The position numbers were made by a program, and so were the translations under genes. From Undibacterium pigrum (GTDB lineage: Bacteria > Pseudomonadota > Gammaproteobacteria > Burkholderiales > Burkholderiaceae_D), in the NCBI RefSeq assembly GCF_003201815.1, contig NZ_QJKB01000008.1:186001-250000 (forward strand): DNA of 64,000 bases, read 5' to 3'. Positions 1 to 39,068 of this stretch are shown one piece after another. Below the pieces are notes generated by a model. It was not told the origin of the DNA. It did not search any database and saw nothing but the letters and a program-made list of their open reading frames with translations. Every line of letters begins with the position of its first letter. Within the stretch, counting starts at the first letter, position 1.

Positions 1-1
1 C

Positions 2-1033
2 CATCTGCATCTGAATATAGATTTATGGGATTGCGCACAAGACTTGCGCAAGAATGAGATTGCCGCCGCCTATTGGTCTGATACACCCATGGCGCAACTG
101 ATCGCCGACTGGAGAAACGGTTCACCCTTCATGGGCATGGACAAGGTGGCCGCCGTAGTGGAACGTCACAAGTATCGTTCTACCCGCGAACTTGATATTA
201 CCGTAGAACGCTTTGGCGAAAACCCGCAATTCATATTTGAAAATCTCAAGCAATGCCTGGCGCTGGGTGGCGGCAGTAATCCACATGATGGTGTCCATGA
301 ACAGGCAGAAAAGCATGCAGAAAAAATGCGGCAATTCGCAGCCAGCCTGCCTTTCCATAAACGTGCTGGCATGTTGAAGAAGATAGAAGAATTACGCTTT
401 TACCTGTGGTGGCGTGAAGAATTGCGTGACCTGTCGACAGCTTATTACTATTGGGTCAGACAACTGACGCTACGCGTTGGTAAGCACTTGCAAGGCGCAG
501 GCATACTCGAACAGGTCGAAGATATTTTCCATCTCAGCAAAGATGAAGTTGTTGCCGTACTGGATGGCAGCCTGGATGCGACCAGTGCCAGCCAGCGCTG
601 GCGCAAGAATCGCGACTATTACCAGTCCTTCCGCCATTTCACACCACCAGACGAGATAGGTGCGGGTTTCTTGCAAACGGCAGAATTGTCCGATGCCAGC
701 GCAGCAGCTACCAGTTTCAAGGGCATACCTTGCAGCCAGGGCGTAGTCGAAGGCCGGGTCAAGGTGATCGCCAATATCCAGGATGCAGAAAGGCTGGAAA
801 AGGGCGATATTCTCATCACCCGATTTACCGATCCGGGCTGGACTGCAAAATTTCCCTTGCTGGCAGCAGTGGCGACTGAGACAGGCGGTTTGCTGTCGCA
901 CGCCGCGGTGATTTCACGCGAATATGGCATCCCCGCTGTGCTGGCCGTCAAAAACCTGACAGGCTTGCTGGTGGATGGGCAACTGGTGCGCATAGATGGC
1001 GGACGTGGTCTGGTCGAGGTCATCCATGAATGA
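2..1033 (+). CDS. PEP-synthase/rifampin-phosphotransferase-like dikinase, C-terminal part (5' truncated by window edge)
   Basis: The frame is open to the first base of the window, so only the C-terminal ~343 residues are present and the true start lies outside. The last ~110 residues form the PEP-utilising swivelling phosphohistidine domain: GIPCSQGVVEGRVKV, then a GGLLSHAAVISRE segment whose histidine (codon 899-901) is the expected phospho-carrier. The L-S-H context resembles rifampin phosphotransferase more than the T-C-H of true PEP synthase. The preceding helical region (EELR...VEDIFHLSKDEV) matches the same region of the full-length homologue at 3139-5859, so the two are paralogues. Expected chemistry is ATP-dependent transfer of phosphate to an alcohol or pyruvate through phosphohistidine; the substrate is unknown. 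It overlaps the next gene by 8 bp, so it belongs to the same operon. Confidence 0.85.
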   Translation, partial: HLHLNIDLWDCAQDLRKNEIAAAYWSDTPMAQLIADWRNGSPFMGMDKVAAVVERHKYRSTRELDITVERFGENPQFIFENLKQCLALGGGSNPHDGVHEQAEKHAEKMRQFAASLPFHKRAGMLKKIEELRFYLWWREELRDLSTAYYYWVRQLTLRVGKHLQGAGILEQVEDIFHLSKDEVVAVLDGSLDATSASQRWRKNRDYYQSFRHFTPPDEIGAGFLQTAELSDASAAATSFKGIPCSQGVVEGRVKVIANIQDAERLEKGDILITRFTDPGWTAKFPLLAAVATETGGLLSHAAVISREYGIPAVLAVKNLTGLLVDGQLVRIDGGRGLVEVIHE

Positions 1034-1589
1034 GGCAGCATTGTGGACGCAGGTGATTGCACCTGTGCTGCTGGGTGGTGTCAGCAATATGGTGTTTGTC
1101 AAATCAAAGTGGCTTGATAGCTGGAAACATCCCATGGATGCAGGTCGCCTTGCCAGCGATGGCCGCCGCCTGTTTGGTGCCAACAAAACCTGGAAGGGTT
1201 TTTGGGGCATGGTGATAGGCACTGCCTGCTGGTCCGCAATGATTTTCTTGCTCCTCAATCTGGCAGCGACTATCAGCCTTGACTGCCTGTTCAAGGCCGC
1301 ACTGACAGGTGCCCTGCTGGGCCTGGCCTATGTGCTGGCAGAACTGCCTAACAGTTATATCAAGCGTCGCCTCGACATCGCACCCGGTCAGAATAGCCAT
1401 GGCTGGAAGGGCAGGCTATTCATCGTCATTGACCAGATTGATTCTGTCCTTGGCTGTTTATTGCTGGCGATGTTGCTGATGCCCGTGCAATGGATAGATG
1501 CCGTCAAGATCGTCATTATCTGCGGTGGTTTGCATCTGATGGTGAACTGGTTGCTGTTCCAGTTGAAATTGAAAAATCAAAAATTCTGA
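1026..1589 (+). CDS. CarS/DUF46-type CDP-lipid synthase (CDP-archaeol or CDP-diglyceride synthase-like)
   Basis: 187-residue multi-spanning membrane protein. Two family motifs are visible: FGANKTWKGFWG at residues 50-61, and SYIKRRLDIAPG followed by IDQIDSVLG. This KRR...DQ.D pattern matches CarS (CDP-archaeol synthase, PF01864) better than bacterial CdsA. The expected reaction is CTP plus a phosphorylated lipid giving a CDP-lipid and pyrophosphate. The ATG at 1026 lies inside the end of the upstream dikinase gene (8-bp overlap), which favours it over the in-frame upstream start at 996. The pssA-like gene starts 7 bp downstream. Whether the lipid is diacylglycerol phosphate or an ether or prenyl lipid cannot be read from sequence; CarS-like proteins also occur in bacteria without archaeal lipids. 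Confidence 0.8.
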   Translation: MNEAALWTQVIAPVLLGGVSNMVFVKSKWLDSWKHPMDAGRLASDGRRLFGANKTWKGFWGMVIGTACWSAMIFLLLNLAATISLDCLFKAALTGALLGLAYVLAELPNSYIKRRLDIAPGQNSHGWKGRLFIVIDQIDSVLGCLLLAMLLMPVQWIDAVKIVIICGGLHLMVNWLLFQLKLKNQKF

Positions 1590-1596
1590 TTGCGCC

Positions 1597-2187
1597 ATGC
1601 TGATACTCGCTTATCTTAATCTTCCCAATCTCATTACGCTGACTGGCATGCTGTGTGGCTTGTCGAGCATGATACTGTCATTGCATGCTTATCCCGGGTT
1701 TGCGCTGCTGGCCCTGGTGTGTGCAGGCATTTGCGATTTGCTGGATGGCCATGTGGCGCGCAGCATGTCTGCTCATGGCAAGCGCAGCGATGCACAAAGT
1801 CAGTTTGGCCAGACGCTTGATAGCCTGGTCGACGTTATCAATTTTGGCATGGCACCCATGGTGTTCATCTATGCCTTGCAACCTTCACCATCTGTCAGTT
1901 TTTATTTGTGTGCCGGATTTTATGTAGCCTGCGCCGTATTGCGCCTGGCTTATTTTACTGTGCATGGCTTGCTGGAAGATAGCCGGGGCAAGTATTACAG
2001 CGGCTTGCCCGTGACATATGCTGCCTTGCTGCTGCCTGTGACCATGCTGCCGGGTTTGCTGTCATGGCCTTTGTCGTGGCTATTGTGGTTGTTGCATGTA
2101 TGGCCATTGCTGATTGGCAGCCTGTTTATTTCACGCCTGCGTTTTCGCAAACCGGGTAGTGCCAGAACTGTGAGTGCCGGTGCATGA
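1597..2187 (+). CDS. pssA: CDP-alcohol phosphatidyltransferase, phosphatidylserine synthase-like
   Basis: 196-residue membrane enzyme of the CDP-alcohol phosphatidyltransferase family. The catalytic signature is present: D47, D50-G51, A54-R55, G71, D75 and D79, with FGQTLDSLVDVINFG typical of serine-specific members (PssA or archaetidylserine synthase). The spacing between AR and G is 15 residues rather than the usual 8, a 7-residue insertion rich in polar residues (SAHGKRSDAQSQ). Predicted reaction: CDP-lipid plus L-serine gives a phosphatidylserine-like lipid and CMP. It lies between the CDP-lipid synthase and the decarboxylase gene (4-bp ATGA overlap), the expected pathway order. It is probably not the only PS synthase of the cell, because the neighbouring dikinases make this an unusual context. 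Confidence 0.85.
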   Translation: MLILAYLNLPNLITLTGMLCGLSSMILSLHAYPGFALLALVCAGICDLLDGHVARSMSAHGKRSDAQSQFGQTLDSLVDVINFGMAPMVFIYALQPSPSVSFYLCAGFYVACAVLRLAYFTVHGLLEDSRGKYYSGLPVTYAALLLPVTMLPGLLSWPLSWLLWLLHVWPLLIGSLFISRLRFRKPGSARTVSAGA

Positions 2188-3149
2188 GTGCTGTTTCTGA
2201 AATCACGCTATATGACAGGAAGCAGGCACGTCTGGTCAGCGAGCAAGTGTTTGAAAAAAGCTTCATGCAGTTTTTTTACGGCCACCCTCTTGGCCTGGCA
2301 CTGGCGGATATCTTCATCAAGAGAACCTGGTTTTCAAGACTGTATGGCTGGCTGAAGTCGCGCAAGTCTTCTGCCAGGCAAATCCAGGCATTTGTTGTGC
2401 TGCACGACATTGATATTGCCGAGGTTGAGCTGCCCTTGCATGCCTATCCCTGTTTCAGTGCTTTCTTCACGCGCAAACTGAAAGCTGGTTCGCGTCCTGT
2501 ACCTGCTGACCAGCGCATCCTGTTTTCTCCTGCTGATGCACGATTGTCAGTGTGGAAGATACAGGCTGACCAGGTCTTGCCAGTCAAGGGGCGGCATTTC
2601 AGCCTGGCGCAATTGCTGCGAGATGAAAAACTGGCAGATAAATATCGTGATGGTGATTGCCTGGTATTCAGGCTGGCACCGGCCGATTATCACCGCTACA
2701 TCCATATCGACCACGGCATGCAGGGGCCAGTCAGGCGTATCAATGGCTACCTGCATTCAGTCAGCCCCCTGGCCCTGCAAAACATGCTGGCAGTGTTCAC
2801 AGAAAACCAGCGTGAATATTGCAGCATACAAACCCGCAACTTTGGTGAGGTCATACAAATTGATGTGGGCGCCCTGGTGGTTGGCCGCATCACCCAGCAC
2901 AAGGTCGATGGTGGCCTGGTTGAACGCGGTGAAGAAAAAGGCTATTTCGATTTTGGTGGTTCTACCATCATTTTACTTTTCAAGGCTGGGGTCATCAGCA
3001 TTGATGCCGATATCCGGCAGCACAGCGCACTAGGCATAGAGACCTTGGTCAGGCAGGGGGAGGGTATTGCTTATTCATTGCTGAACCCATCATTACTGAC
3101 CCCATCATTGCTGACTCCATCCAGCATCCAGGAAACACATGCAAACTGA
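2184..3149 (+). CDS. psd: Phosphatidylserine decarboxylase (proenzyme)
   Basis: 321-residue pyruvoyl-dependent decarboxylase. LAPADYHRYIHIDHG carries the conserved catalytic histidines and FDFGGSTIILLF carries the self-cleavage site; the motif is GGST rather than the common LGST, with the serine expected to become the pyruvoyl group. Predicted reaction: phosphatidylserine-type lipid to ethanolamine-type lipid plus CO2. The start ATG overlaps the pssA-like stop (ATGA) and the 3' end overlaps the next dikinase by 11 bp, so translation is probably coupled. The C-terminus ends in an odd proline-rich tail (LLNPSLLTPSLLTPSS) encoded by three 15-bp repeats. Confidence 0.92.
   Translation: MSAVSEITLYDRKQARLVSEQVFEKSFMQFFYGHPLGLALADIFIKRTWFSRLYGWLKSRKSSARQIQAFVVLHDIDIAEVELPLHAYPCFSAFFTRKLKAGSRPVPADQRILFSPADARLSVWKIQADQVLPVKGRHFSLAQLLRDEKLADKYRDGDCLVFRLAPADYHRYIHIDHGMQGPVRRINGYLHSVSPLALQNMLAVFTENQREYCSIQTRNFGEVIQIDVGALVVGRITQHKVDGGLVERGEEKGYFDFGGSTIILLFKAGVISIDADIRQHSALGIETLVRQGEGIAYSLLNPSLLTPSLLTPSSIQETHAN
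3081..3125 (+). repeat. Three 15-bp tandem repeats in the psd 3' end
   Basis: Units begin at 3081, 3096 and 3111 (CTGAACCCATCATTA, CTGACCCCATCATTG, CTGACTCCATCCAGC). They are in frame and encode the repeated L-x-P-S-L tail of the decarboxylase. The third unit is degenerate. This is likely slippage-prone sequence added behind the folded enzyme. Confidence 0.75.
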
Positions 3150-5859
3150 AATTATTTCTTCGTCTTCAACACAGGCGAATCCCAGTGTTGCCCAACTGGG
3201 CGGCAAGGGCAAGAATTTGCTGACAATGAAACTCGCGGGTTTCCAGGTCCCTTACTTCATCGTCTTGCCGGTCGCCTTCTTTGAAGAATTGATGGGTGCA
3301 GACTTGCCCATACTCGACGGGCTTTGCCTAGCTGCAGCCAATAGCGCTGGGCCTGAGCGTGATGCTGCCATGGCCGCAGCGCGTCAACTAATACTGGAAA
3401 AGAAACTCGACGCCAACACTGAGCAAGAAATCTTGCGTCTGCTGGCGGGGCAGGGTGAGCATTTTGCTGTCCGTTCTTCCGCCGTAGATGAAGATGCCAG
3501 CACGCATTCTTTTGCTGGTCAACTGGACAGTTTCCTGTTCGTCCCTGCGGATGCATCCATCTTCGGCAAGATACTGGCATGTTATGCCTCAGCCTATAAC
3601 GACCGCAGTTTTGCCTACCGGTCTGAGCATGCATTGACGCGCGATTGCATACGGCCTGCCGTTGTCGTGCAGAGCATGGTGTTTGCCGATGTATCTGGCC
3701 TGGTGTTTACCGGCAATCCCATGAATTGCAATCCCGATGAAATGGTCATCAGTGCCAGCTATGGCGCAGGCGAGGGCGTGGTTTCCGGCGAGATGGATTG
3801 TGATACCTGGTATATAGATGAGTCAGGCGCTGTCGCCAGAAAAGTCATCGTCGAAAAAGCGGCAGGCCTGTTTTTCGATGAGGAGCAACGCCATGGCCTG
3901 AAGCGTAAAAATGTCGATGCAGCGATCGCGCACAAGGACTGCCTGACTGAGAAACAAGTGCGACAACTGGCTCAGGTAGCACATGATATAGAACTCGCTT
4001 ATGGTGGCATACCGCAAGACATAGAATGGGGATTTGTTAAAGACCAGTTGTACATACTGCAGGCCAGGCCAGTTTCCAATCTCTCGCATATCTGCAAGTT
4101 CTCGGCAAGGACCATACTGGACAATTCCAATATTGTAGAAAGTTTTTCCGGCGTGACTTCACCGCTGACTTTTTCTTTTGCCAGCAGGGTATATGAAAAA
4201 GTCTATGAACAATTTTATGGCTTGTTTGGTGTGCCTGCATCTGAGATACAGAGTTTGAAGCCAGTATTTCGCAATATGCTCGCTTACTATCAGGGCCATG
4301 TTTATTACAATTTGAATAGCTGGTATCGCAGCCTTTCATTGCTGCCATTTTTTGATACCAATAAAAAGAACTTCGACGCCTCCATCGGTGTGCAGGCAAG
4401 GTCGGGTACGGCCGGGCTTGCCCATACCATGCAGCGCGGGCGTCTGGCATCTGGCTGGCGTGCCCTGACTGCGGGTGTGCGCATGACTTATTTCTATCTG
4501 CGCCGCCACAGCATATGCCGCTGCTTTGCCAGTGATTTTGATGTATTCATGCAGCCATACATGCAACTGGATATGTCAGGTTTGAACAATGTCGAATTGC
4601 TGGCCACCTATGACAGGGTGGAACAGCGTCTCCTGAACGACTGGCGTGCGCCTATCATCAATGATTTTTTTGCCGAGACTTTCCATGGTTTGTTGCGTCT
4701 GTTCCTGAAGCGCTATATCTGCCAGGATGAACAGCAAGTTTCGCTATTGCATAATGACTTGCTGTGCGGGCAGGGTGGCATGGCCAGCGTGGCTCCTACC
4801 AATATGTTGATGGACATCGCTGCCTGGATCAGGCAGGTGCCTGATCTGACTTTTGCCATGCGCAACTATGGCGTGCGTGAATTGCAGCAAATGATAGAGG
4901 CAGCTCATGGGCCAGAATGGCAAGCCTTGAAGCAGCGCATGGATGCCTATCGACATGAATTTGGATTTCGCTGCATCAATGAGTTGAAGCTGGAAGAAAT
5001 CAGTATCAAGGATGACCCTGCCTTTATCATACAGGCGCTTAAAAACTACCTCATGCCCGATGATGCCATTAGCCAGGATGCTGATGGCGAACACACCCAG
5101 GTTGCAAAAACTGCCGAGCAAAGCGTATTGCAAGCCTGTGGCAACAATATCCTGTTGCGCCTGCTGGCTTGGTGGCTGATACGCAATGCCCGCGCTTGTG
5201 TGAAAGAAAGGGAAGAACTGCGCTTCTACCGGACCAAGGTGTTTGGTTTTGTGCGTTATCTGACCAGGGCGATGGGGGCCAACTTCGTCAAGAATGGGCA
5301 GTTGCAAAAAGTGGAAGATATCTATCTGCTGAGCATAGATGAAGTATTTGGCCTGATAGAACAACGCGCCGTCAGCCAGGATGTGGCAAACGGGATTATC
5401 CCCTTGCGCCAGCGTGAACAAGCCGCATTTCATACGCTTGATGAAGTACCGCCACGTTTGCATTTCTATGGTGAACTGCGACCAGAACGCATGGTCGTGG
5501 TCAGTGCCGATGACACAGCCGCGGCAGGCATGATTGATGATGTTGCGGGCCTCTACAAAGGCACGCCTTGCAGCTCTGGCCTGGTGCAGGGCAGGGTCAA
5601 GGTGGTACACGATACCCGTGATGTGCAGTTGAATGGCGAGATACTGGTGACGCGCCGCACTGATCCGGGCTGGGTGCCATTCTTCCCCTGCATATCGGGT
5701 TTGATCGTCGAGCGCGGCAGTGTGCTTTCACATTCTGCCGTGGTGGCGCGGGAGATGGGCATCCCCGCCGTAGTGGGTTTGCGTGGCATCAGTGCCTTGC
5801 TGAAAGATGGCGACGAAGTGCAACTGGATGGGGCTGCTGGCCTGGTGTGTCGCAGATGA
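3139..5859 (+). CDS. PEP-synthase/rifampin-phosphotransferase-like dikinase, full length
   Basis: 906 residues with the layout of the PEP-synthase superfamily: N-terminal ATP-binding domain (GGKGKNLLTMKLAG near residue 22, FAVRSSAVDEDASTHSFAGQ near 112, QDIEWGFV...LQARPVSN near 295-313), a long middle domain, and a C-terminal swivelling domain (GTPCSSGLVQGRVKVV) with the predicted phosphohistidine H865 in RGSVLSHSAVVARE. The L-S-H context and middle domain resemble rifampin phosphotransferase, which moves the beta phosphate of ATP to an alcohol, more than PEP synthase. It is a paralogue of the truncated gene at the left edge. Overlaps of 11 bp with psd and 4 bp with the UbiA-like gene place it in the lipid operon, which suggests a lipid alcohol or head-group substrate; this is inference. 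Confidence 0.85.
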   Translation: MQTEIISSSSTQANPSVAQLGGKGKNLLTMKLAGFQVPYFIVLPVAFFEELMGADLPILDGLCLAAANSAGPERDAAMAAARQLILEKKLDANTEQEILRLLAGQGEHFAVRSSAVDEDASTHSFAGQLDSFLFVPADASIFGKILACYASAYNDRSFAYRSEHALTRDCIRPAVVVQSMVFADVSGLVFTGNPMNCNPDEMVISASYGAGEGVVSGEMDCDTWYIDESGAVARKVIVEKAAGLFFDEEQRHGLKRKNVDAAIAHKDCLTEKQVRQLAQVAHDIELAYGGIPQDIEWGFVKDQLYILQARPVSNLSHICKFSARTILDNSNIVESFSGVTSPLTFSFASRVYEKVYEQFYGLFGVPASEIQSLKPVFRNMLAYYQGHVYYNLNSWYRSLSLLPFFDTNKKNFDASIGVQARSGTAGLAHTMQRGRLASGWRALTAGVRMTYFYLRRHSICRCFASDFDVFMQPYMQLDMSGLNNVELLATYDRVEQRLLNDWRAPIINDFFAETFHGLLRLFLKRYICQDEQQVSLLHNDLLCGQGGMASVAPTNMLMDIAAWIRQVPDLTFAMRNYGVRELQQMIEAAHGPEWQALKQRMDAYRHEFGFRCINELKLEEISIKDDPAFIIQALKNYLMPDDAISQDADGEHTQVAKTAEQSVLQACGNNILLRLLAWWLIRNARACVKEREELRFYRTKVFGFVRYLTRAMGANFVKNGQLQKVEDIYLLSIDEVFGLIEQRAVSQDVANGIIPLRQREQAAFHTLDEVPPRLHFYGELRPERMVVVSADDTAAAGMIDDVAGLYKGTPCSSGLVQGRVKVVHDTRDVQLNGEILVTRRTDPGWVPFFPCISGLIVERGSVLSHSAVVAREMGIPAVVGLRGISALLKDGDEVQLDGAAGLVCRR

Positions 5860-6695
5860 AAACCGCAATGCGCTGCCTGACCTGGGGGCGGCAGGCATTT
5901 TCATGGCAGGACTGGCTGTTGTTTTCCAGTGTGTTTCTGGCGACGTGTGTACTGTCTGTGCACTCACTTGCCACCTGGGCTGTGATCCTGGCCTGGATAG
6001 TGTCCCTGAGCTTTTTCCTGCTGCTGAAGCTGCTGGATGAACTGCTGGATTTTTCCACGGATCAGAGAGCGGGGCGAGATTCATTCTTGCTGCGCGGCGA
6101 AGTCAGCCAGCAGGAATTGTGGCTAGTGGTCTTATTGGTCTTGCTGGCGCAATTATGTTACTTGCTGTCCTTTCAACGCAGCCAGGCGCTGCTCACCTGG
6201 TTTGCTCTGATGCTAAGTGCCTTCCTGCTGGCCCATCCTGGTCTGGCAGGCCGGCCGATTCTGTATTCGCTGTTGCATTACCTTTTGCTGCCCGGTTTTG
6301 CTGCCTGGCAATTCTCTCTGAGCACAGACTGGGCTGACTTTGATGTACCGCATGCCTTGTTCATGCTGGTGTTATATGCCGGTGCCCTGCAATATGAACT
6401 GAGTCGCAAGCTTGACCTGCATAGCGGTTATGCGGGTGTCCTGACGCTGTTCCAGACTTGTTTCGGAATAGGATTGATGAATTTGCTGGCTTGTATGAGT
6501 TGTGCTATTTTGATCACAGTTTCCGGCCGCAAGTTATTTTCTCTGGAAATGATAGTGTGTGTCTTTTTTGCCACTATTTATGCACTGGTCTGCTTGCTCA
6601 TCAAGCCTGCGCCATCAACAAAAATTCTGCTGAGAAATATCAGCGGATTCTCCCTTCTGTGTCTCAATCTGGTGATTTTTACATCCCTGGCTTAG
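5856..6695 (+). CDS. UbiA-superfamily integral membrane prenyltransferase-like protein
   Basis: 279 residues, about eight hydrophobic segments. After the second segment comes LLDELLDFSTDQRAGRD...RGEVSQQEL, which fits the D-E-x2-D-x3-D plus R-G-x-V pattern of a UbiA subfamily; later YELSRKLDLHSGYAGVLT fits the E-x-x-RK...G segment replacing the second Asp-rich motif in those proteins. UbiA enzymes condense a polyprenyl diphosphate with an acceptor in the membrane; archaeal DGGGP synthase is a member. The second Asp motif is degenerate, so activity or acceptor is uncertain. The chosen ATG at 5856 overlaps the dikinase stop (ATGA), better than the upstream GTG at 5847. It is the last gene of the first operon. 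Confidence 0.6.
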   Translation: MKTAMRCLTWGRQAFSWQDWLLFSSVFLATCVLSVHSLATWAVILAWIVSLSFFLLLKLLDELLDFSTDQRAGRDSFLLRGEVSQQELWLVVLLVLLAQLCYLLSFQRSQALLTWFALMLSAFLLAHPGLAGRPILYSLLHYLLLPGFAAWQFSLSTDWADFDVPHALFMLVLYAGALQYELSRKLDLHSGYAGVLTLFQTCFGIGLMNLLACMSCAILITVSGRKLFSLEMIVCVFFATIYALVCLLIKPAPSTKILLRNISGFSLLCLNLVIFTSLA

Positions 6696-6864: not shown

Positions 6865-7761
6865 ATGAGCATCACACAAACCATGTACACCGACAGGATA
6901 GCCAAGTTGGTCCAGCTATCCCGTGAGCGACATGTATTCAGTTTTACCCGCTTTGACTGGGTAGACGATATCAGCGAAGCCGACTGGTGGGTAAGCCCTG
7001 AATTATTGACGATCTATGGCACACCCTATTACGAGCAGGCAACAGAAGCCCAGCGCAAATTGCTCAGCAAATGGGAATGCATCAATCTCTTCAGCCTCAA
7101 TGTAACCGGTGAGCAGGAGTTGATCTCAGGCGTGGCAGAACTCTTGCATACGCCCATGCTGAAAGAAGCAAATGATTACCTGCATCATTTCATCGATGAA
7201 GAAAACCAGCATATGTGGTACTTCGCCAAGTTTTGCGAAAACTATGCAGGCAAGATTTACGGCAATAAAAAATTACAGATCACGACGCTGAAACTTGATC
7301 CGCGGCTTGCTGTGCTGGTACGTTTCGCCCAGATTTTCATTTTTGAAGAAGTCGGCCATTACTACAACCTGAAGATCGCGCTGGATGACAGGGTCCACCC
7401 TTTCATACGTGAAATCAATGAAGCGCATCGCAATGATGAATCGCGCCACATCACCTTTGGCCGCATCTTGCTGGCCAGGCTCGCTGAAGGTATTACCGAA
7501 GATTATCCGCCAGAAGTATTGCAGACAATTTCGAATCACTTGCGCAAGTATGTGCAGGTCACGATCGAATCCTTATACAACCCGACCATGTATCGCGATG
7601 CCGGTTTTGCCAGTGGCATTGCCGTGCGCAGCGCATTGCTGAGCCATCCAGTGCGGCAAGAATTTCATACCCGTGAATTGCTCAAGAAAGTCCTGGCTTT
7701 GCTGGGAGACACCAATTTAATCCAGAAGGAGACAAGTTTTGAACCAGATTATCAATCTTGA
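6865..7761 (+). CDS. AurF-type diiron N-oxygenase
   Basis: 298-residue helical, ferritin-like diiron oxygenase of the AurF/CmlI family (p-aminobenzoate N-oxygenase family). Ligand candidates are visible: E85 (or E83), E113-x2-H116 in FIDEENQHMW, E161/E162 in FIFEEVGHYY, and H188-x3-E192-x2-H195 in EAHRNDESRH. The H-x3-E-x2-H pattern with the extra histidine is the AurF hallmark. Relatives oxidise primary amines to hydroxylamine, nitroso or nitro groups, including in the pvf, mgo and ham diazeniumdiolate loci. The ATG follows a good Shine-Dalgarno (GGAGA, 6850-6854). The carrier-protein gene begins inside its 3' end (23-bp overlap), suggesting a carrier-bound amino acid substrate or a partnership with the NRPS parts. 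Substrate unknown. Confidence 0.82.
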   Translation: MSITQTMYTDRIAKLVQLSRERHVFSFTRFDWVDDISEADWWVSPELLTIYGTPYYEQATEAQRKLLSKWECINLFSLNVTGEQELISGVAELLHTPMLKEANDYLHHFIDEENQHMWYFAKFCENYAGKIYGNKKLQITTLKLDPRLAVLVRFAQIFIFEEVGHYYNLKIALDDRVHPFIREINEAHRNDESRHITFGRILLARLAEGITEDYPPEVLQTISNHLRKYVQVTIESLYNPTMYRDAGFASGIAVRSALLSHPVRQEFHTRELLKKVLALLGDTNLIQKETSFEPDYQS

Positions 7762-7984
7762 CAAGATCAATGAAGTCAGACAGTGGCTGTTGTCGAAGAA
7801 AAAATATCTATCCGATATCCCGCTCGACCTTGATTTAATAGAAAACGATGTAGTCGATTCCCTCAGCTTTGTGGAATATGTACTCGTCATAGAAGAAATC
7901 AGTGGCAAGGAAGTTGTTGTTGACGACACCGTACTCGACAAAGTCAGGACGCTGGACAGGGTGCAACTGCATTACATGCAGTAA
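7739..7984 (+). CDS. Free-standing acyl/peptidyl carrier protein
   Basis: 81 residues with the carrier-protein fold pattern. The attachment motif is D40-S41-L42 in DVVDSLSFVEYVLVIEE; S41 is the expected phosphopantetheine site. The start is TTG at 7739, supported by AAGGAG about 9 nt upstream; no ATG fits. The gene overlaps the oxygenase by 23 bp and is followed by the reductase 64 bp later. In this context it probably carries the aminoacyl group loaded by the stand-alone adenylation domain at 10236-11873 and released by the reductase. No phosphopantetheinyl transferase is in the window. Confidence 0.85.
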   Translation: MNQIINLDKINEVRQWLLSKKKYLSDIPLDLDLIENDVVDSLSFVEYVLVIEEISGKEVVVDDTVLDKVRTLDRVQLHYMQ

Positions 7985-8048
7985 ATCACATTCAATCCGC
8001 TCCCTTAACGACACGCTTATCTGCAGAATAATTACAAGGACAAACAAG

Positions 8049-10121
8049 ATGGAACACCAATTAACTGATTATCGCTACGGTGATTTGCTGGAATTGACTA
8101 ACCGCCACCGCAATACGACAAAAAATATTATCCTGACCGGCGCTACCGGTTTCCTCGGCAGTAATTTCCTGTTCTGGCGTTTGCGTCAGAGCGGCAAGAT
8201 TTATGTCCTGGTCAGGGGCGAGTCACAGGAGCATGCGAAACAGCGCGTCTATGATGCGCTGGCAGTATGTGCCTCGGCTTACAATCAGCCCATTCCCAAG
8301 GCTGACATAGACAGCAAGCTGGAATACATACTCGGCGACATGACAGAAACCATGTGCGCGATCAGCAAGGCTGATATGGAAAAGCTCGCGGCTGGCAATA
8401 TCTCAGAGTTCTGGCACTGTGCAGCCAGCCTGAAGTTTGAAGACCGCCACAAAGAAGAAATCTATCATCACAATATCAATGGCACGCAAAATGTGATGGA
8501 CCTGGCTCGTCGCGCCAATTGCCAACACTATCTGCATATCTCCACTGCCTACACTTCTGGCCGCGTGGCTGGAGATATACCTGAGACCCTGCATCCTGTC
8601 GATATTGCCTATAACAATTTCTACGAAAGCAGTAAAAATGAAGGCGAGCATGAAGTCGCCAGATACTGTGATGCCAATGGCCTGGATTACCGCATCCTGC
8701 GCCCGGCCATCATCATGGGACCACTGGCTTCGCGCCGCAGTGGTGGTACACGTTTTGGTATCTATGGCCTGACACAGGAAATGTATCGCCTGCGCGAAAC
8801 CCTGAGCAAGTTGCAGACGCCTTTGCGTCTCATCGGTGACCTGGCCGCAGCTGGCAATCTGGTGCCTGTGGATCAATGTGTGTTCGATATGATTTATCTC
8901 AGCAATATCGGTTTTGGCGATCAAAAGGTGTATCACCTGACCAACTCCAGCGACTTGAACGTCAAGACAATGCTGGAAAAAATCGATGTGGCACTGGGCA
9001 TGAAGAGCATCAACTTCGTCCCTGAGCGTGATACCCCGGCAACAGCGATAGAAGAATTATTCGACAAACGTACCGTGTTCTACGGTGGCTACTACCGCAC
9101 CATCAAGAATTTCGCCCGCAGCCTGCCCAAACATGCTGGTCTGAGCTGGGCCGACTATGGCACTTATCTGACTGCCTTCATCAAGGAGCTCGATGAACAG
9201 CAAAGCGGCACGACTTTCAACCGCACTCAGGTGACGGCAGAAGATGGCACGGAACTGTGCGTGCTGACACTGGGTGATAACAGCAAGCCACCACTGGTGC
9301 TGGCAAACGCCTATGGCATGCCGTCTGATTTCATGTTCCCGCTGGCCAAACGCCTGTCTGATCAGTTCCAGGTCATCACCTGGGAAAGCCGTTGGGTGCC
9401 TGCAATCACGCATGAATTTGATCTGGCGAAATGTCATTCCCTGACCCATGCCAGGGACCTGGTTTCCATCCTTGATCACTTTGGCATTGCCAAAGCTGCG
9501 GTGGCTGGCTGGAGTAGTGGTGCCCAGGTCTGCCTGCGTACCATGGCCCAGTTTCCTGATCGTATTTCATCTGCAGTCTTGCTCAATGGCGGTGTTTCAT
9601 TGCCGGCATCGAATGAGATCAAGATCACGGAATTTGAAAAAAATATCCGTACACTATTCCCGAAAATCGCTGCCAATTATCGCTTTGCGCAAAAATACTG
9701 CGACCTGATTTATGGTGCACATGCGACCTCGGATGATGGTGAAGACAGGAAAATGATCTCCACCATTTTGACCAGTACCGACCCTTTCCTCCTATATATG
9801 ACCAGCGTTCCTTTCCGCACGCCGGAATCCCTGTTCAGGTATGCCAACATGATGAATGGTTTGTTCAGTGAGCGTGCCGATGCATGGACTGCTGATGTAC
9901 CACATCCTGTACTAGTGCATGTAGGCGGCAATGATCTGGTGACCCATCCTGATGTGGGCCGCTTCCTGGTAGCCGGACTGGAAAACGGCGTGTTGTCCTT
10001 TGATGAAAACGGCGATCACTTCTCGCATTTCTATGACGAAGACCTGGCAAGCATGATCAAGCAATTTGTTGCTCAGCATCAGCACCAGGTTCAGGCACAG
10101 GATGCGTTGATCGCAAGTTGA
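8049..10121 (+). CDS. Thioester reductase domain fused to an alpha/beta hydrolase
   Basis: 690 residues in two parts. Residues ~1-390 are a thioester-reductase-type extended SDR: NAD(P)-binding GATGFLG (31-37), LHISTAYTSG, and YESSK as catalytic Y-x3-K. Such domains release carrier-bound thioesters as aldehydes or alcohols. Residues ~395-690 are an alpha/beta hydrolase with G-W-S-S-G and nucleophile S489, plus late GGNDLVTHPD (acid) and GDHFSHF (histidine). No carrier domain lies between them, so the partner is probably the separate ACP. The ATG at 8049 has AAGGA 8 nt upstream (8036-8040); the frame is open further 5' but that part overlaps the ACP gene. The reductase-hydrolase fusion is unusual; the hydrolase may proofread or trim a product. 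Confidence 0.82.
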   Translation: MEHQLTDYRYGDLLELTNRHRNTTKNIILTGATGFLGSNFLFWRLRQSGKIYVLVRGESQEHAKQRVYDALAVCASAYNQPIPKADIDSKLEYILGDMTETMCAISKADMEKLAAGNISEFWHCAASLKFEDRHKEEIYHHNINGTQNVMDLARRANCQHYLHISTAYTSGRVAGDIPETLHPVDIAYNNFYESSKNEGEHEVARYCDANGLDYRILRPAIIMGPLASRRSGGTRFGIYGLTQEMYRLRETLSKLQTPLRLIGDLAAAGNLVPVDQCVFDMIYLSNIGFGDQKVYHLTNSSDLNVKTMLEKIDVALGMKSINFVPERDTPATAIEELFDKRTVFYGGYYRTIKNFARSLPKHAGLSWADYGTYLTAFIKELDEQQSGTTFNRTQVTAEDGTELCVLTLGDNSKPPLVLANAYGMPSDFMFPLAKRLSDQFQVITWESRWVPAITHEFDLAKCHSLTHARDLVSILDHFGIAKAAVAGWSSGAQVCLRTMAQFPDRISSAVLLNGGVSLPASNEIKITEFEKNIRTLFPKIAANYRFAQKYCDLIYGAHATSDDGEDRKMISTILTSTDPFLLYMTSVPFRTPESLFRYANMMNGLFSERADAWTADVPHPVLVHVGGNDLVTHPDVGRFLVAGLENGVLSFDENGDHFSHFYDEDLASMIKQFVAQHQHQVQAQDALIAS

Positions 10122-10235: not shown

Positions 10236-11873
10236 ATGAAAAAAACAGCAAATTTATTGATTAGCGGTTTTCTCAATGCCGCCAGAAATCATCCCAATAG
10301 CAATGCATTGTGGGTGGATGAACAGGTTTATACCTATGCCGAGTTGCTGCTGCGGGTAGCAAGGATATCGCGCACTCTCGGCAGAGAAATTAAAAACGCA
10401 CATCAGCAACGTTGTGCCGTGCTGGTTGAACGCAGCATTACTGCCTATGCTTCGGTGCTGGGCAGTTTGCTGGCAGGGATGAGTTATGTACCTCTGAATG
10501 CCAAGTTCCCGGCGCAGCGTAATTTGCGCATGCTGGAACTGTCTTCATCGACATCCATCGTTGTCGATGAACGTTCCATGGATGCGGCTAAAGAAATCCT
10601 GCAAGCTTATCCCGACCCCTTGATGGTACTCATGCCTGAGACAGACAGCCTGCCCACCTGGGCCGCCAGTGCCAGCCAGCATACCTATATACTCAAGCGC
10701 CAGCTGGCAGAGGCTGATACGGCCAACCTGGCCTTGCCGCAAAAAGCCAATGCCGTCGCCTATGTACTCTTCACTTCAGGTAGCACGGGTTTGCCCAAGG
10801 GCGTGGCCGTCACCAATGACAATGCCAGCACCTATGTTGCCAACATCATCGAACGCTACCAGCCTGGGCCGGGTGACCGTTTTACCCAGTTCTTTGACTT
10901 CACTTTTGACTTGTCAGTGCATGATATCTTTGTCAGTCTGAGTTCCGGAGCCTGTCTGTACAGTGTGCCAGGGCGCGTGATGATGATGCCGTTGAAGTTT
11001 GTTCAGCAACATGAATTGACGCACTGGTTTTCCGTACCTTCACTGGCGGCTTGCCTGAAGCGCTATAACGCATTGCGCCCTGGTATTTTGCCCAGCCTCA
11101 AATACAGCCTGTTTTGTGGCGAAGCCCTGCCCACCAGCCTGGCGCAGGACTGGCAACCCGCTGCACCCAATTCCGTCATAGAGAATTTGTATGGCCCTAC
11201 TGAGGCGACGATTGCCTTTACCGTCTACCCTTACCAGGCAGACGATCAACGCATAGCTGCTTTGCCCGTAGTGCCGATAGGTACGCCTTTGCCGGGACAG
11301 GAAGTCGTGATACTGGATGAGCATTTTGCACCGGTAGCCGATGGCGAGACTGGCGAGCTCTACCTGGGTGGCTCGCAACTGGCCCAGGGGTATTGGGAAA
11401 ACACAGAACTGACAAGACAACGCTTTCTCAATATGCGCTTCGAGGGCAAACAGGCCAGCCGCTGGTATCGTACCGGTGATCTGGCCAGCCATGATGCACA
11501 GGCCGGTTTGCTGTATGGTGGCCGTATTGATAACCAGGTAAAAATACGCGGTTATCGGGTCGAGGTGCAAGAAGTGGAGGCGGTCATCCGCCGCCTGGGC
11601 GGGTCTGATCTGGTCGCCGTCGTACCCTGGCCCCTGGCTGCTGACGGCAGCGTGCAAGGCTTGCTTGCGTATGGCTGCGGCTTTACCGTATCATCAATGG
11701 AAATCCTCAAGGCGTGCACCTTGCAATTGCCTGCCTATATGGTGCCTCAGGATTTGATAGAACTGCGCAAGATGCCCTTCAATTCCAATGGCAAGATCGA
11801 TTATCCGGCGCTGCAAAAAATGGCGGGTGATGGTGATAAGCTGAAACGAGAAGCGGTGACGCAGGGACTATAA
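10236..11873 (+). CDS. Free-standing NRPS-type adenylation domain
   Basis: 545-residue AMP-forming enzyme of the amino-acid adenylation type (NRPS A domain or DltA-like). Core motifs in order: FTSGSTGLPKG (A3, near 179), FDFTFDLSVHDIF (A4), LYGPTEATI (A5), ELYLGGSQLAQGYW (A6), WYRTGDLA (A7), GGRIDNQVKIRGYRVE (A8) and FNSNGKIDY (A10, catalytic Lys). The Asp that binds the alpha-amino group (position 235 in GrsA numbering) appears to be kept. A by-memory alignment gives the specificity residues D-L-H-S-L-C-L-I-A; this needs checking and gives no confident substrate. It has no condensation or carrier domain, so it should load the ACP at 7739-7984. It lies 114 bp after the reductase and ends at a strong terminator. 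Confidence 0.85.
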   Translation: MKKTANLLISGFLNAARNHPNSNALWVDEQVYTYAELLLRVARISRTLGREIKNAHQQRCAVLVERSITAYASVLGSLLAGMSYVPLNAKFPAQRNLRMLELSSSTSIVVDERSMDAAKEILQAYPDPLMVLMPETDSLPTWAASASQHTYILKRQLAEADTANLALPQKANAVAYVLFTSGSTGLPKGVAVTNDNASTYVANIIERYQPGPGDRFTQFFDFTFDLSVHDIFVSLSSGACLYSVPGRVMMMPLKFVQQHELTHWFSVPSLAACLKRYNALRPGILPSLKYSLFCGEALPTSLAQDWQPAAPNSVIENLYGPTEATIAFTVYPYQADDQRIAALPVVPIGTPLPGQEVVILDEHFAPVADGETGELYLGGSQLAQGYWENTELTRQRFLNMRFEGKQASRWYRTGDLASHDAQAGLLYGGRIDNQVKIRGYRVEVQEVEAVIRRLGGSDLVAVVPWPLAADGSVQGLLAYGCGFTVSSMEILKACTLQLPAYMVPQDLIELRKMPFNSNGKIDYPALQKMAGDGDKLKREAVTQGL

Positions 11874-11971: not shown

Positions 11972-12004
11972 GATTAATTGATCCACTTGCACGAGGAAGA
12001 ATTG

Positions 12005-12472
12005 ATGGCAAGCACACACAGATGCATTTTTTGCGACATCCTGAATGGGCAGAGTGAAGCTGCGGTGGTTTACCGCGACCAGCATTGCATCGCCATACTT
12101 GATGCTTTTCCAATGACGCGCGGGCATTTGCTGGTGATACCGCATCAGCATCAGCAGCATATAGAAGAATTGCCGGAAGAAACAGTGGCCTACCTGTTTG
12201 CACTGGCGAGCCGTTTTTCATCAGCCTTGCGCCTGGGAGGCGAAAGTGAAGCGACTGCCGTGGTCCTGAATAATGGCAAGGCAGCCAACCAGCATGTGGC
12301 CCACGTACACCTGCACGTGATACCACGCAGGCCGGGTGATACGGCGCTGGTGGTATGGCGTTATGTGACGCGCTTCATCAACCCCTGGTCGTATATAGGC
12401 CGCAGCAAACGACTGGGTAAGCAGGCTACGCGCTGGCAGAGCCTCTTGCAAAAAGCCGGAACAGTTTCCTAA
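12005..12472 (+). CDS. HIT family nucleotide-binding hydrolase
   Basis: 155 residues. The histidine triad H100-V-H102-L-H104-V-I is complete, and the N-terminal CIFCDILNGQ is typical of Hint/HIT proteins, which hydrolyse phosphoramidates or aminoacyl-adenylates of AMP. The C-terminal ~40 residues (WRYVTRFINPW...) extend past the triad. The ATG at 12005 has a GAGGA Shine-Dalgarno about 6 nt upstream; the in-frame TTG at 11978 has none. It lies downstream of the adenylation gene but behind a terminator, so it may be a separate unit; clearing of stray aminoacyl-AMP is a conceivable but unproven link. Confidence 0.85.
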   Translation: MASTHRCIFCDILNGQSEAAVVYRDQHCIAILDAFPMTRGHLLVIPHQHQQHIEELPEETVAYLFALASRFSSALRLGGESEATAVVLNNGKAANQHVAHVHLHVIPRRPGDTALVVWRYVTRFINPWSYIGRSKRLGKQATRWQSLLQKAGTVS

Positions 12473-12568: not shown

Positions 12569-14251
12569 TTACGCGACTTTTTTCTCGTCACGCAATTCAC
12601 GTCGCAAAATCTTGCCCACATTTGATTTAGGCAATTCAGTGCGGAACTCTATGTATTTGGGTTTTTTGTAGGAAGTCAGTTGTTCCTTGCAATAAGTCAT
12701 CAACTGGTCATCGGTCAACTGCGCATCTTTTTTGACGACATACAGTTTCACGGCTTCACCGGAATTGGCATCTGGCACACCTATGCATGCGCATTCTAAC
12801 ACGCCAGGATGACCGGCAACCACACCTTCTATTTCATTCGGATACACATTGAAACCGGACACCAGTATCATGTCTTTCTTGCGGTCGACAACCCGGATAA
12901 AGCCATTGGCTTCCATGATGCCAACGTCACCTGATTTAAAGAAACCATCGGCTGTCATGACCTTCTCGGTTTCATCCGGACGGTTCCAGTAACCTACCAT
13001 GGTCTGCGGGCCACGGATGGCAATTTCACCTGGCTCACCCAGAGGCACTCGGTTGCCTGCATCATCGAGGATGGCAATTTCTGTCGAGGGCAGTGGCAAG
13101 CCTATGGTGCCGCTGAAGACGGTTGAATCAGTTGGGTTGCAAGTCGCAACGGGCGAAGTCTCAGACAAGCCGTAGCCTTCGATGATAGGGCAGCCAGTGA
13201 CGGCTTGCCAGCGTTCTGCCACTGATTTTTGCACGGCAGTACCACCACCATTGCAGGCTTTCAGCAAAGAGAAATCCAGCTTGGCAAAATCAGGATTATT
13301 CAACAAACCGTTGTACAGGGTATTGACGGCAGGCAGCATGCTGATCTGGTGGCCGGACAAGGTTTTTACCAAGCCAGGAATATCGCGGGGATTGGGGATC
13401 AGAATATTCAATCCACCCAGGCGTGTACCCATCAGGCAGCAGCTTGTCAGCGCGAAGATATGGTAAAGCGGCAGGGCACAGACGATGGTCATGGACTCTA
13501 CCTTGGGAGCCTTATTCAGCGCAGGCTGTGCCCAAGCTTCATTTTGCAGGACATTTGCTGTGACATTGCGGTGCGACAAAGTGGCACCCTTGGAGACGCC
13601 GGTAGTGCCGCCTGTGTATTGCAGGAAGGCGATATCATCATGCGTGATGGTCACAGGTTTGAGCTGCAGGGACGCACCATCTGCCAGCACTTTCTTGAAG
13701 CTGATGGCAGTTGGCAGAGAAAATTCTGGCACCATTTTCTTGATATGGCGTACTGCGAAATTAACGATGGTGCCCTTCAGGCCGCCCAGCAAGTCGCCCA
13801 TGCTGGTGACGACGACATGCTTGATTTTTGTTTTGCTCAAGACCTGTTGCAAGGTCGTGGCAAAGTTCTCCAGGATGATGATGGCTTCTGCACCTGAGTC
13901 ATTCAATTGATGCTCAAGTTCACGCGGTGTGTACAGGGGATTGACGTTGACTGCAGTATAGCCCGCACGCAGGACTGCGGCGATGACAACAGGATATTGC
14001 AAGACATTTGGCATCATGATGGCGACACGTGCGCCTTTTTCCAGCCCCTTGCTTTGCAGCCAGGCACCAAACTTTTTCGACAGGTCATCCACCTCGCCAT
14101 AGGTCAGATATTTGTCCATGCAAACATAGGCCTTGCGTGCTGCATATTTCTGGAAAGAATCCTCCAGCATATGCACCAGGGAAGTGTATTGTTGATAGTT
14201 GATTTCTGCGGGTACGCCCTTGGGGTAGGATTGCAGCCAAAATTTATCCAT
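12569..14251 (-). CDS. fadD: Long-chain fatty acid--CoA ligase
   Basis: 560 residues, the usual FadD length. AMP-binding core LQYTGGTTGVSKGATLSHRN, then YGLSETSPV, GEIAIRGPQTMVGYWN, DGFFKSGDVG and the FadD linker region VVDRKKDMILVSGFNVYPNEIE; catalytic lysine in the SNVGKILRREL end. It activates long-chain fatty acids with ATP and CoA for beta-oxidation or phospholipid synthesis at the inner membrane. It is monocistronic, convergent with the HIT gene, and shares the terminator at 12479-12519. The N-terminus (MDKFWLQSYPKGVPAEI) matches betaproteobacterial FadD. Confidence 0.93.
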   Translation of the reverse strand: MDKFWLQSYPKGVPAEINYQQYTSLVHMLEDSFQKYAARKAYVCMDKYLTYGEVDDLSKKFGAWLQSKGLEKGARVAIMMPNVLQYPVVIAAVLRAGYTAVNVNPLYTPRELEHQLNDSGAEAIIILENFATTLQQVLSKTKIKHVVVTSMGDLLGGLKGTIVNFAVRHIKKMVPEFSLPTAISFKKVLADGASLQLKPVTITHDDIAFLQYTGGTTGVSKGATLSHRNVTANVLQNEAWAQPALNKAPKVESMTIVCALPLYHIFALTSCCLMGTRLGGLNILIPNPRDIPGLVKTLSGHQISMLPAVNTLYNGLLNNPDFAKLDFSLLKACNGGGTAVQKSVAERWQAVTGCPIIEGYGLSETSPVATCNPTDSTVFSGTIGLPLPSTEIAILDDAGNRVPLGEPGEIAIRGPQTMVGYWNRPDETEKVMTADGFFKSGDVGIMEANGFIRVVDRKKDMILVSGFNVYPNEIEGVVAGHPGVLECACIGVPDANSGEAVKLYVVKKDAQLTDDQLMTYCKEQLTSYKKPKYIEFRTELPKSNVGKILRRELRDEKKVA

Positions 14252-38701: not shown

Positions 38702-39068
38702 TTGTGGTCTCGAATTAGGAGGTGGATGTTGTTATGGTGAAGCTGCTTAAAAAGGAAACGAATAAAGGAACCGAATTTTGTATTGCCATACTGCTCATTG
38801 CTTATTTTTCACTACGCATACATTCATATCAAACTGGTATTGCCTGAAAACAAAGCTTTATACAGGTAATTGCAACAAACTGTAAGCAGCTTTTCAAGCT
38901 TACGGGGGAAATACGCTTACATGAGGTTTTAAGCTTACATTTGGCGCTTACACCTGCCTTGAAATGTTAAAAAATATGTCGTACTCTGGGTGCTGGATTT
39001 CCGCATGGAAACTACGCGTGGAAATTACGCATGGACTTAATAAATTACGGGCAGACCAAAGGTGCATC
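38702..39068. other. Divergent intergenic region between Tricorn protease and GH44 genes
   Basis: 367 bp carrying both promoters. Apart from the GCTTAC motif array listed separately, I see AT-rich sequence with no further gene. An in-frame extension of the GH44 frame reaches 38964 but lacks a ribosome site and would bury the signal peptide. Confidence 0.5.
38881..38952 (+). promoter_or_regulatory. Array of GCTTAC motifs upstream of the GH44 gene
   Basis: One inverted copy TGTAAGC at 38881-38887, then direct copies of GCTTAC at 38898, 38915, 38933 and 38946; three of the four direct copies are followed by A. Spacings of 17, 18 and 13 bp. TGTAAGC and GCTTACA are the two halves of the LacI-family-like palindrome TGTAAGCGCTTACA. 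They sit 117-188 bp before the start codon, as a set of regulator sites would. Confidence 0.5.

Follow-up and report, generated by a model that had tools for sequence, protein, structure and literature searches.

In this study, we analysed a 64,000-nucleotide window of the 6.4-Mb genome of Undibacterium pigrum (positions 186,001-250,000 of contig NZ_QJKB01000008.1; G000:C8:186001-250000). Its first genes belong to an operon that joins CDP-lipid head-group enzymes to two dikinases related to rifampin phosphotransferase (RPH) and a UbiA-superfamily protein. We propose, with a probability of about 0.6, that this operon encodes an accessory and probably horizontally moved pathway, which would add a phosphoethanolamine head group to a lipid alcohol other than diacylglycerol. 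A first-pass annotation of the window had suggested that the bacterium has a second, dedicated pathway for making an ethanolamine lipid. That is still the best reading of the genes, in view of the separate housekeeping copies, the RPH-type dikinases and the conserved core, although the archaeal pathway on which the suggestion leaned does not appear to be complete here.

Gene content of the operon

The six genes first described as an operon have open frames, and their coordinates and families were borne out by Pfam and NCBIfam models and, for the UbiA protein, by a predicted structure. Dikinase 1 (DK1, 1..1033, + strand) is truncated by the window edge, which leaves its last 343 codons in the window, and it was typed partly from the copy in Undibacterium umbellatum (locus L009). 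Its frame starts 1612 bases upstream (L003:18388), overlapping the stop of an aminotransferase/reductase gene, and the whole protein has about 880 residues when the upstream 20 kb is added. On the same strand follow a CarS-like CDP-lipid synthase (1026..1589, 187 aa), a CDP-lipid:serine transferase (PSS, 1597..2187, 196 aa), a phosphatidyl/archaetidylserine decarboxylase (PSD, 2184..3149, 321 aa), dikinase 2 (DK2, 3139..5859, 906 aa) and the UbiA-superfamily membrane protein (5847..6695, 282 aa). The CarS gene most likely starts at 1026 rather than 996, giving an 8-bp overlap with DK1, because the homologue of U. umbellatum, which is 94% identical, begins there. The remaining junctions are +7, -4, -11 and -13 bp (the last is -4 if the in-frame ATG at 5856 is used), consistent with the overlaps of 4-11 bp first noted at four of the five junctions. 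The limits originally drawn at 2..6695 did not stand, since DK1 starts upstream and the gene run continues beyond 6695; an AurF-type oxygenase gene begins 169 bases after the UbiA gene.

The claimed identities of the three head-group enzymes agree with Pfam scores far over the cut-off of 22 bits, namely 68.4 bits for CarS (PF01864), 66 bits for PSS (CDP-OH_P_transf, PF01066) and 172.9 bits for PSD (PS_Dcarbxylase, PF02666). Among curated models, PSS is nearest those of archaetidylserine synthase. By eye, PSS contains DxxDGxxAR...GxxxDxxxD with a long spacer and PSD contains GGST, which we take to be the motifs of these two enzymes.

At E 0.001, neither Pfam nor NCBIfam has a model that matches the UbiA gene product. 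It does match a profile of UbiA-like proteins from related operons (hmmsearch i-E 5e-12, 3-row set), and its predicted structure (pLDDT 77.7) finds UbiA-superfamily structures as best matches, with the UbiA fold and the first aspartate-rich motif present. In Foldseek, the model fits digeranylgeranylglyceryl phosphate (DGGGP) synthase best (TM 0.70). UBIAD1 and ApUbiA tie with this enzyme within 1 Z unit in VIA-align, and the assignment is therefore limited to membership of the UbiA superfamily, which holds at the level of the profile and the model. The second acidic motif reads YELSRKLDLHSG in the window and ExxRKxRAPxDETEY in most relatives. The superfamily named in the first-pass annotation thus stands, although the second motif is degenerate.

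The genome has separate housekeeping lipid genes. A second psd elsewhere scores 255.5 bits (NCBIfam cut-off 111.75), a separate pssA 115.4 bits (cut-off 107) and pgsA 184.9 bits (cut-off 109.1), so the operon genes are not the only pssA and psd; had they been, this would have spoken against a second route. Two CdsA-like genes are recognized by PF01148 at 193 and 175 bits, the main one lying between genes that look by eye like uppS and dxr. The second CdsA-like gene has a CDP-alcohol transferase gene about 2 kb away; both are on another contig (G000:C10; L008:1420-2040 and L090:1486-2367). The closest model for this transferase is that of archaetidylinositol phosphate synthase, at 82 bits against a cut-off of 180.

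The two dikinases

Both dikinases are supported as RPH-type enzymes by their predicted architecture and catalytic residues. In DK2, Pfam recognizes PPDK_N and PEP-utilizers domains; the DK1 gene ends with a PEP-utilizers mobile domain. RPH and small-molecule dikinases such as HpeHI share with them an ATP-grasp part, an acceptor part, a C-terminal swivelling histidine and an Arg-Glu pair; the operon enzymes differ in their lipid-synthesis context and in occurring as two kinds side by side. The related loci described below provided 110 dikinases for a FastTree phylogeny with the genome's own phosphoenolpyruvate (PEP) synthase as outgroup, and 14 short frames outside the tree were typed by BLAST. 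The tree splits into two clades, DK1 (45 rows, support 1.0) and DK2 (65 rows, support 0.996), with at most one DK1 and one DK2 per locus.

The residues expected on the ATP side, R, E, Q and R, are kept in 45/45 DK1 and 65/65 DK2 rows, the two from the window included. The swivelling histidine is found in 44/45 DK1 rows (one has a gap) and 65/65 DK2 rows, and the ATP-side lysine in 44/45 and 65/65. On the acceptor side, the arginine of the Arg-Glu pair is present in all 45 DK1 rows and the glutamate in 43 (the other two have Asp); DK2 has both in 65/65, and the genome's PEP synthase has a gap at this site. In a study of RPH (PMC4844700), replacing this pair with alanine left the enzyme unable to inactivate rifampin although its ATP half-reaction still ran, distant clades retained the pair with diverged substrates, and RPH homologues were described as frequently misannotated as PEP synthase.

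The latter identity was rejected for the operon enzymes, and they do not group with true PEP synthases in scores, residues or tree. Only 43 and 41 residues follow the swivelling histidine in the window's dikinases, compared with 373 in the genome's PEP synthase (1166 bits with TIGR01418, cut-off 739.75), and neither DK1 nor DK2 has the C-terminal barrel of that enzyme. With TIGR01418, DK2 scores 248 bits and the window part of DK1 89 bits. With RPH chains, the L009 copy of DK1 reaches 319 bits, as against 185-216 bits with full-length chains named PEP synthase; the corresponding values for DK2 are 230 and 145-172 bits. Both remain under the cut-off of 999 of the rifampin phosphotransferase model NF041857 (DK2 313.6 bits; DK1 172.8 bits, scored from its window part), and residues 321-540 of the L009 DK1, about 220 residues between the ATP-grasp and C-terminal parts, have no alignment with RPH.

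DK2 lacks the ATP-grasp part in five clostridial loci (L026:8422-9978, L030:8221-9840, L038:3101-4675, L041:8413-9978 and L044:7291-8931), where it starts near the position of residue 280 of streptococcal DK2 and is accompanied by a DK1 of at least 720 residues. HpeHI is described as a dikinase with the ATP-grasp subunit on a separate protein (PMC12167813). By analogy, DK1 could charge both dikinases in these five loci, which is a speculation.

Related loci and exchange of the kinase

A scan with the CarS alignment across one genome per species (84,980 species) gave 365 loci, and the best 80 were studied. Presence was counted with profiles built on these loci, and CarS is present in all by selection. 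DK2 occurs in 74 loci, UbiA in 69, PSS in 63 and PSD in 56; other partners are a GNAT-like protein (49), DK1 (45), a fusion of an HMG-CoA-reductase-like domain and an APH/EcKL kinase (HMGR/APH, 16) and a DgkA-type kinase (13). CarS, DK2, UbiA, PSS and PSD stand together with exactly one kinase type in 48 loci. The search of genome neighbourhoods proposed in the first-pass annotation thus found the core of CarS, dikinase, PSS, PSD and UbiA recurring in unrelated bacteria. The hosts include Streptococcus sanguinis, S. gordonii, S. cristatus, Abiotrophia, Enterococcus, Roseburia, Butyrivibrio, Oribacterium, Paenibacillus and Pseudoalteromonas denitrificans; metagenome-assembled genomes of deltaproteobacterial, gammaproteobacterial and spirochaete origin are also among them. 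Near the window genome the operon is rare. Among 147 related genomes, nine contained a CarS match (E up to 0.001); identity above 90% was seen in the window genome and one congener only. Since, in addition, the operons of S. cristatus and S. sanguinis have differing neighbours, the distribution suggests that the operon moved horizontally.

The kinase beside CarS is variable. DK1 is present in 45 loci, the DgkA type in 13 and the HMGR/APH profile in 16; no locus has two types together, and six have none (L014 and L017, which are short contigs, and L033, L036, L050 and L061). The DgkA type was assigned through PF01219 in one representative (L048, 85 bits), and its frame ends less than 100 bases from the CarS frame start, or overlaps it, in 13/13 loci. 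The HMGR/APH type was assigned through the HMG-CoA_red and APH/EcKL domains of one fusion protein (L013:2126-4900), the profile of which matched in 15 other loci. At 285 bits, the HMGR domain of L013 lies under the curated cut-off of 441.8, and its substrate may therefore differ from HMG-CoA. A quick tree built on CarS requires five or more changes of kinase type. The DgkA loci form one starred set (98), nested in a starred set of 46 rows (32 DK1, 13 DgkA and one without kinase). The simplest reading of this exchange is that all three kinase types make the phosphate monoester used by CarS.

DK2 behaves differently from DK1: it is present in all 69 loci with UbiA, and five further loci have DK2 without UbiA. 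The first-pass annotation had both dikinases phosphorylate a lipid alcohol. This role remains plausible for DK1, but a shared role does not seem to fit, as DK1 alone is swapped and DK2 tracks UbiA. The UbiA protein also varies with the kinase. Across 43 alignment rows (42 from the 69 loci with UbiA, plus the window), its second motif has the form ExxRK in the window, 18 DK1 rows, 11 DgkA rows and two kinase-less rows, and the form H[DE][FY]xH in nine HMGR/APH rows and two kinase-less rows; the two forms track the kinase type.

The GNAT-like protein of one locus (L019) was modelled as a tandem GNAT fold (pLDDT 76.3; best match 2wpw, TM 0.55 and 0.60), and a ceramide-synthase-like function is conceivable for it. 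GNAT and HMGR/APH co-occur in 0/80 loci, and no GNAT-like protein was found in the window genome by a search that had no positive control. From these patterns we infer a fixed core of CarS, PSS, PSD, UbiA and DK2, to which an exchangeable kinase and an exchangeable part using acyl thioesters (GNAT, HMGR-like or aminotransferase/reductase) would be added. In L019, a PEMT/ICMT-type methyltransferase gene (L019:15708-16241) separates UbiA from DK2, and the locus also encodes an MMPL-type exporter. Both would suit an ethanolamine-bearing lipid in this one locus, and the methyltransferase possibly makes a methylated variant of it.

Proposed pathway and alternatives

We propose a pathway in which the reactions, their order and the identity of the lipid alcohol, X-OH, are all inferred from the gene set. 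DK1, with a swivelling-histidine mechanism as in RPH, would convert X-OH and ATP to X-phosphate, AMP and phosphate. CarS would then form CDP-X with CTP, PSS would exchange CMP for serine, and decarboxylation by PSD would yield X-phosphoethanolamine. UbiA and DK2 would synthesise or modify X, the simplest option being the transfer of a prenyl chain onto oxygen. Kinase, CDP activation, serine transfer and decarboxylation follow one another as in the bacterial DgkA/CdsA/PssA/Psd route, from which the operon differs in having CarS for CdsA, a dikinase as kinase, UbiA and DK2 as extra components, and housekeeping copies elsewhere in the genome.

Several observations weigh against this proposal. Of the head-group enzymes, PSD clears just one NCBIfam model (TIGR00163, 114.4 bits, cut-off 111.75). 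CarS is under the equivalog of archaeal CDP-archaeol synthase (NF003114, 81.4 versus 148 bits), PSS is under the archaetidylserine synthase model (NF038087, 93.5 versus 240 bits), and both the main CdsA-like gene (129 versus 385) and the second fall short of NF008635. The best NCBIfam models of the dikinases are named PEP synthase (NF004881 for DK2, 745.8 bits, cut-off 883; NF004877 for the window part of DK1, 187.7, cut-off 866), and DK2 scores nearly as well with the prodigiosin ligases RedH and PigC (310/298 bits) as with RPH (314), so that a ligase role for DK2 is possible. In the window UbiA protein, motif 2 lacks the acidic latter half that most relatives have. A nearby PSS is missing in 17/80 loci and a nearby PSD in 24/80, some at contig ends; L061 has CarS alone, L042, L066 and L085 have CarS and DK1 only, and L035 has CarS, DK1 and an aminotransferase. 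As to the kinase exchange, L012 has a frame of HMGR length only (413 aa), which leaves its kinase unaccounted for, and L022 and L024 hold fragments at contig ends. In the CarS tree, seven rows have long branches, and the starred branches alone force two changes for DK1, two for APH and one for DgkA. The Fisher value for kinase exclusion (3e-16, from counts that ignore relatedness apart from the tree) is overstated because exclusion partly tracks operon phylogeny.

The genes around the six, which the first-pass annotation had missed, raise an alternative. Directly before DK1 lies a fusion of 972 residues (L003:15470-18388) of a class III aminotransferase (Pfam, 226.9 bits) and an acyl-ACP-reductase-like part. 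The best PDB match of the aminotransferase part is CrmG, followed by PigE, and the C-terminal part is matched by the reductase portion of PigE (6e-17) and by an acyl-ACP reductase (6jzq, 2e-9). PigE (4ppm) matches both parts of the fusion, and a TamH-type reductase/aminotransferase is presumably a comparable system; the operon protein differs from the PigE/TamH type in having the aminotransferase first, the reductase second and lipid genes beside it. Such fusions are common, with at least 1901 proteins at E 0.001 among 7994 candidates scored. Downstream, all on the + strand, are an AurF-family di-iron oxygenase (6865..7761, 298 aa; PF11583, 122.8 bits), a small carrier-like protein recognized by eye from a DSL motif and without a Pfam match (7739..7984, 81 aa), a fusion of a thioester reductase domain and an alpha/beta hydrolase (8046..10121, 691 aa as searched) and a stand-alone adenylation enzyme (10236..11873; TIGR01733, 350.7 bits, cut-off 317.4). 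Gene order and strand are conserved for 11 genes, beginning with the aminotransferase and ending with the adenylation enzyme, in U. umbellatum (L009, 78-98% identity) and in Massilia atriviolacea (L010, 45-84%); both sequence stretches break off within the 11th gene. A HIT-family protein gene (11978..12472, +), possibly the last of the run, falls outside these two stretches. The thioester-reductase/hydrolase protein was found at 1e-60 in the window genome alone among 300 genomes drawn from the order. An AMP-binding ligase gene lies on the opposite strand just behind the cluster (12569-14251, -), and a glycoside hydrolase family 44 domain protein is encoded at 38964-40850 of the window.

These genes might instead form a natural-product cluster, in which a fatty amine, formed by the aminotransferase/reductase fusion and oxidised by AurF, is coupled to a second component by the dikinase-like proteins acting as PigC/RedH-like ligases, and the lipid genes only supply the polar group of a secreted product. 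The closeness of the aminotransferase to CrmG and PigE, the ligase scores of DK2, the rarity of CarS among the relatives searched and the AurF, carrier, thioester-reductase and adenylation genes in the same run, kept in Massilia, all point in this direction. We consider it rather unlikely, because most related loci have DK1 and DK2 without the aminotransferase, the fusion profile of which matches in 5/80, and BLAST matches (E 1e-5) to the AurF, carrier and thioester-reductase proteins are confined to L009 and L010 among the 80 loci. Moreover, DK1 is exclusive with DgkA and HMGR/APH, which are kinase families and not ligases. Under the phosphoethanolamine-lipid proposal, the aminotransferase/acyl reductase of Undibacterium and Massilia would convert an acyl thioester to a long-chain amine, and the AurF, carrier, adenylation and thioester-reductase proteins would modify or attach a further piece; the AurF, carrier and thioester-reductase genes may also serve a separate or added product.

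A spare set of ordinary phospholipid genes, kept for some particular condition, is improbable. CarS, PSS and PSD would then act on diacylglycerol phosphate to give plain phosphatidylethanolamine, with DK1 recycling diacylglycerol. The DgkA-type kinases of DK1-less loci do match 'Prokaryotic diacylglycerol kinase' PF01219 (one tested), and PSS and PSD stay within general families. This account leaves UbiA, DK2 and the reductases unexplained in a genome that already has housekeeping cdsA-like, pssA and psd genes. The presence of CarS rather than CdsA in every locus is no evidence against it, because the loci were selected by CarS.

A bacterial archaeal-type ether-lipid pathway, with UbiA as DGGGP synthase and CarS, PSS and PSD leading to archaetidylethanolamine, is just as improbable: geranylgeranylglyceryl phosphate (GGGP) synthase (PF01884) was not found in the genome (100% complete) by a search positive in 7/14 controls, four of them archaea, the archaeal route needs no kinase, its backbone being already phosphorylated, and in VIA-align UBIAD1 and ApUbiA tie with DGGGP synthase. 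The missing GGGP synthase likewise lowers the case for a complete archaeal pathway. The operon resembles archaeal polar-lipid synthesis in having a UbiA-superfamily enzyme, a CarS of family PF01864 and head-group enzymes close to archaeal models, and differs in the GGGP synthase not found, the added kinases and the bacterial hosts. It also differs from the case of the FCB bacteria proposed to make archaeal lipids, for which GGGP and DGGGP synthases have been discussed and CarS went undetected in Ca. Cloacimonetes metagenome-assembled genomes (PMC7852524).

In a full-text literature search that left subscription journals mostly uncovered, no description of such an operon was met among the matches listed. 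A lipidomics study whose set includes S. sanguinis and S. gordonii reports phosphatidylethanolamines at very low levels across that set, and the excerpts examined name no such lipid (PMC11052126). The inference of a second route is strengthened, and the finding is wider than first reported: the operon would represent a form of phospholipid synthesis through CDP activation that employs RPH-type dikinases and has no description among those literature matches. In its broadest form, which we put forward tentatively and hold to be doubtful as a whole, the swivelling-histidine dikinases, a type familiar from antibiotic resistance and phenol catabolism, would be true lipid kinases and, together with UbiA and CarS, would define an undescribed, widespread and modular class of phospholipids. 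These would have an ethanolamine head group and an anchor with both a prenyl and a fatty portion, the latter supplied by an exchangeable thioester-using GNAT, HMG-CoA-reductase-like or aminotransferase/acyl reductase enzyme, in hosts that include oral streptococci and gut clostridia.

If the lipid proposal is right, RPH-type dikinases, a large unexplored enzyme family, would gain lipids as a substrate class, and many bacteria, common human commensals included, would hold an ethanolamine lipid missed by standard lipid searches. The swap of three unrelated kinases at apparently one step makes the prediction directly testable. The mixture of UbiA and CarS, familiar from archaeal lipids, with bacterial kinases bears on how parts are exchanged between the two lipid worlds.

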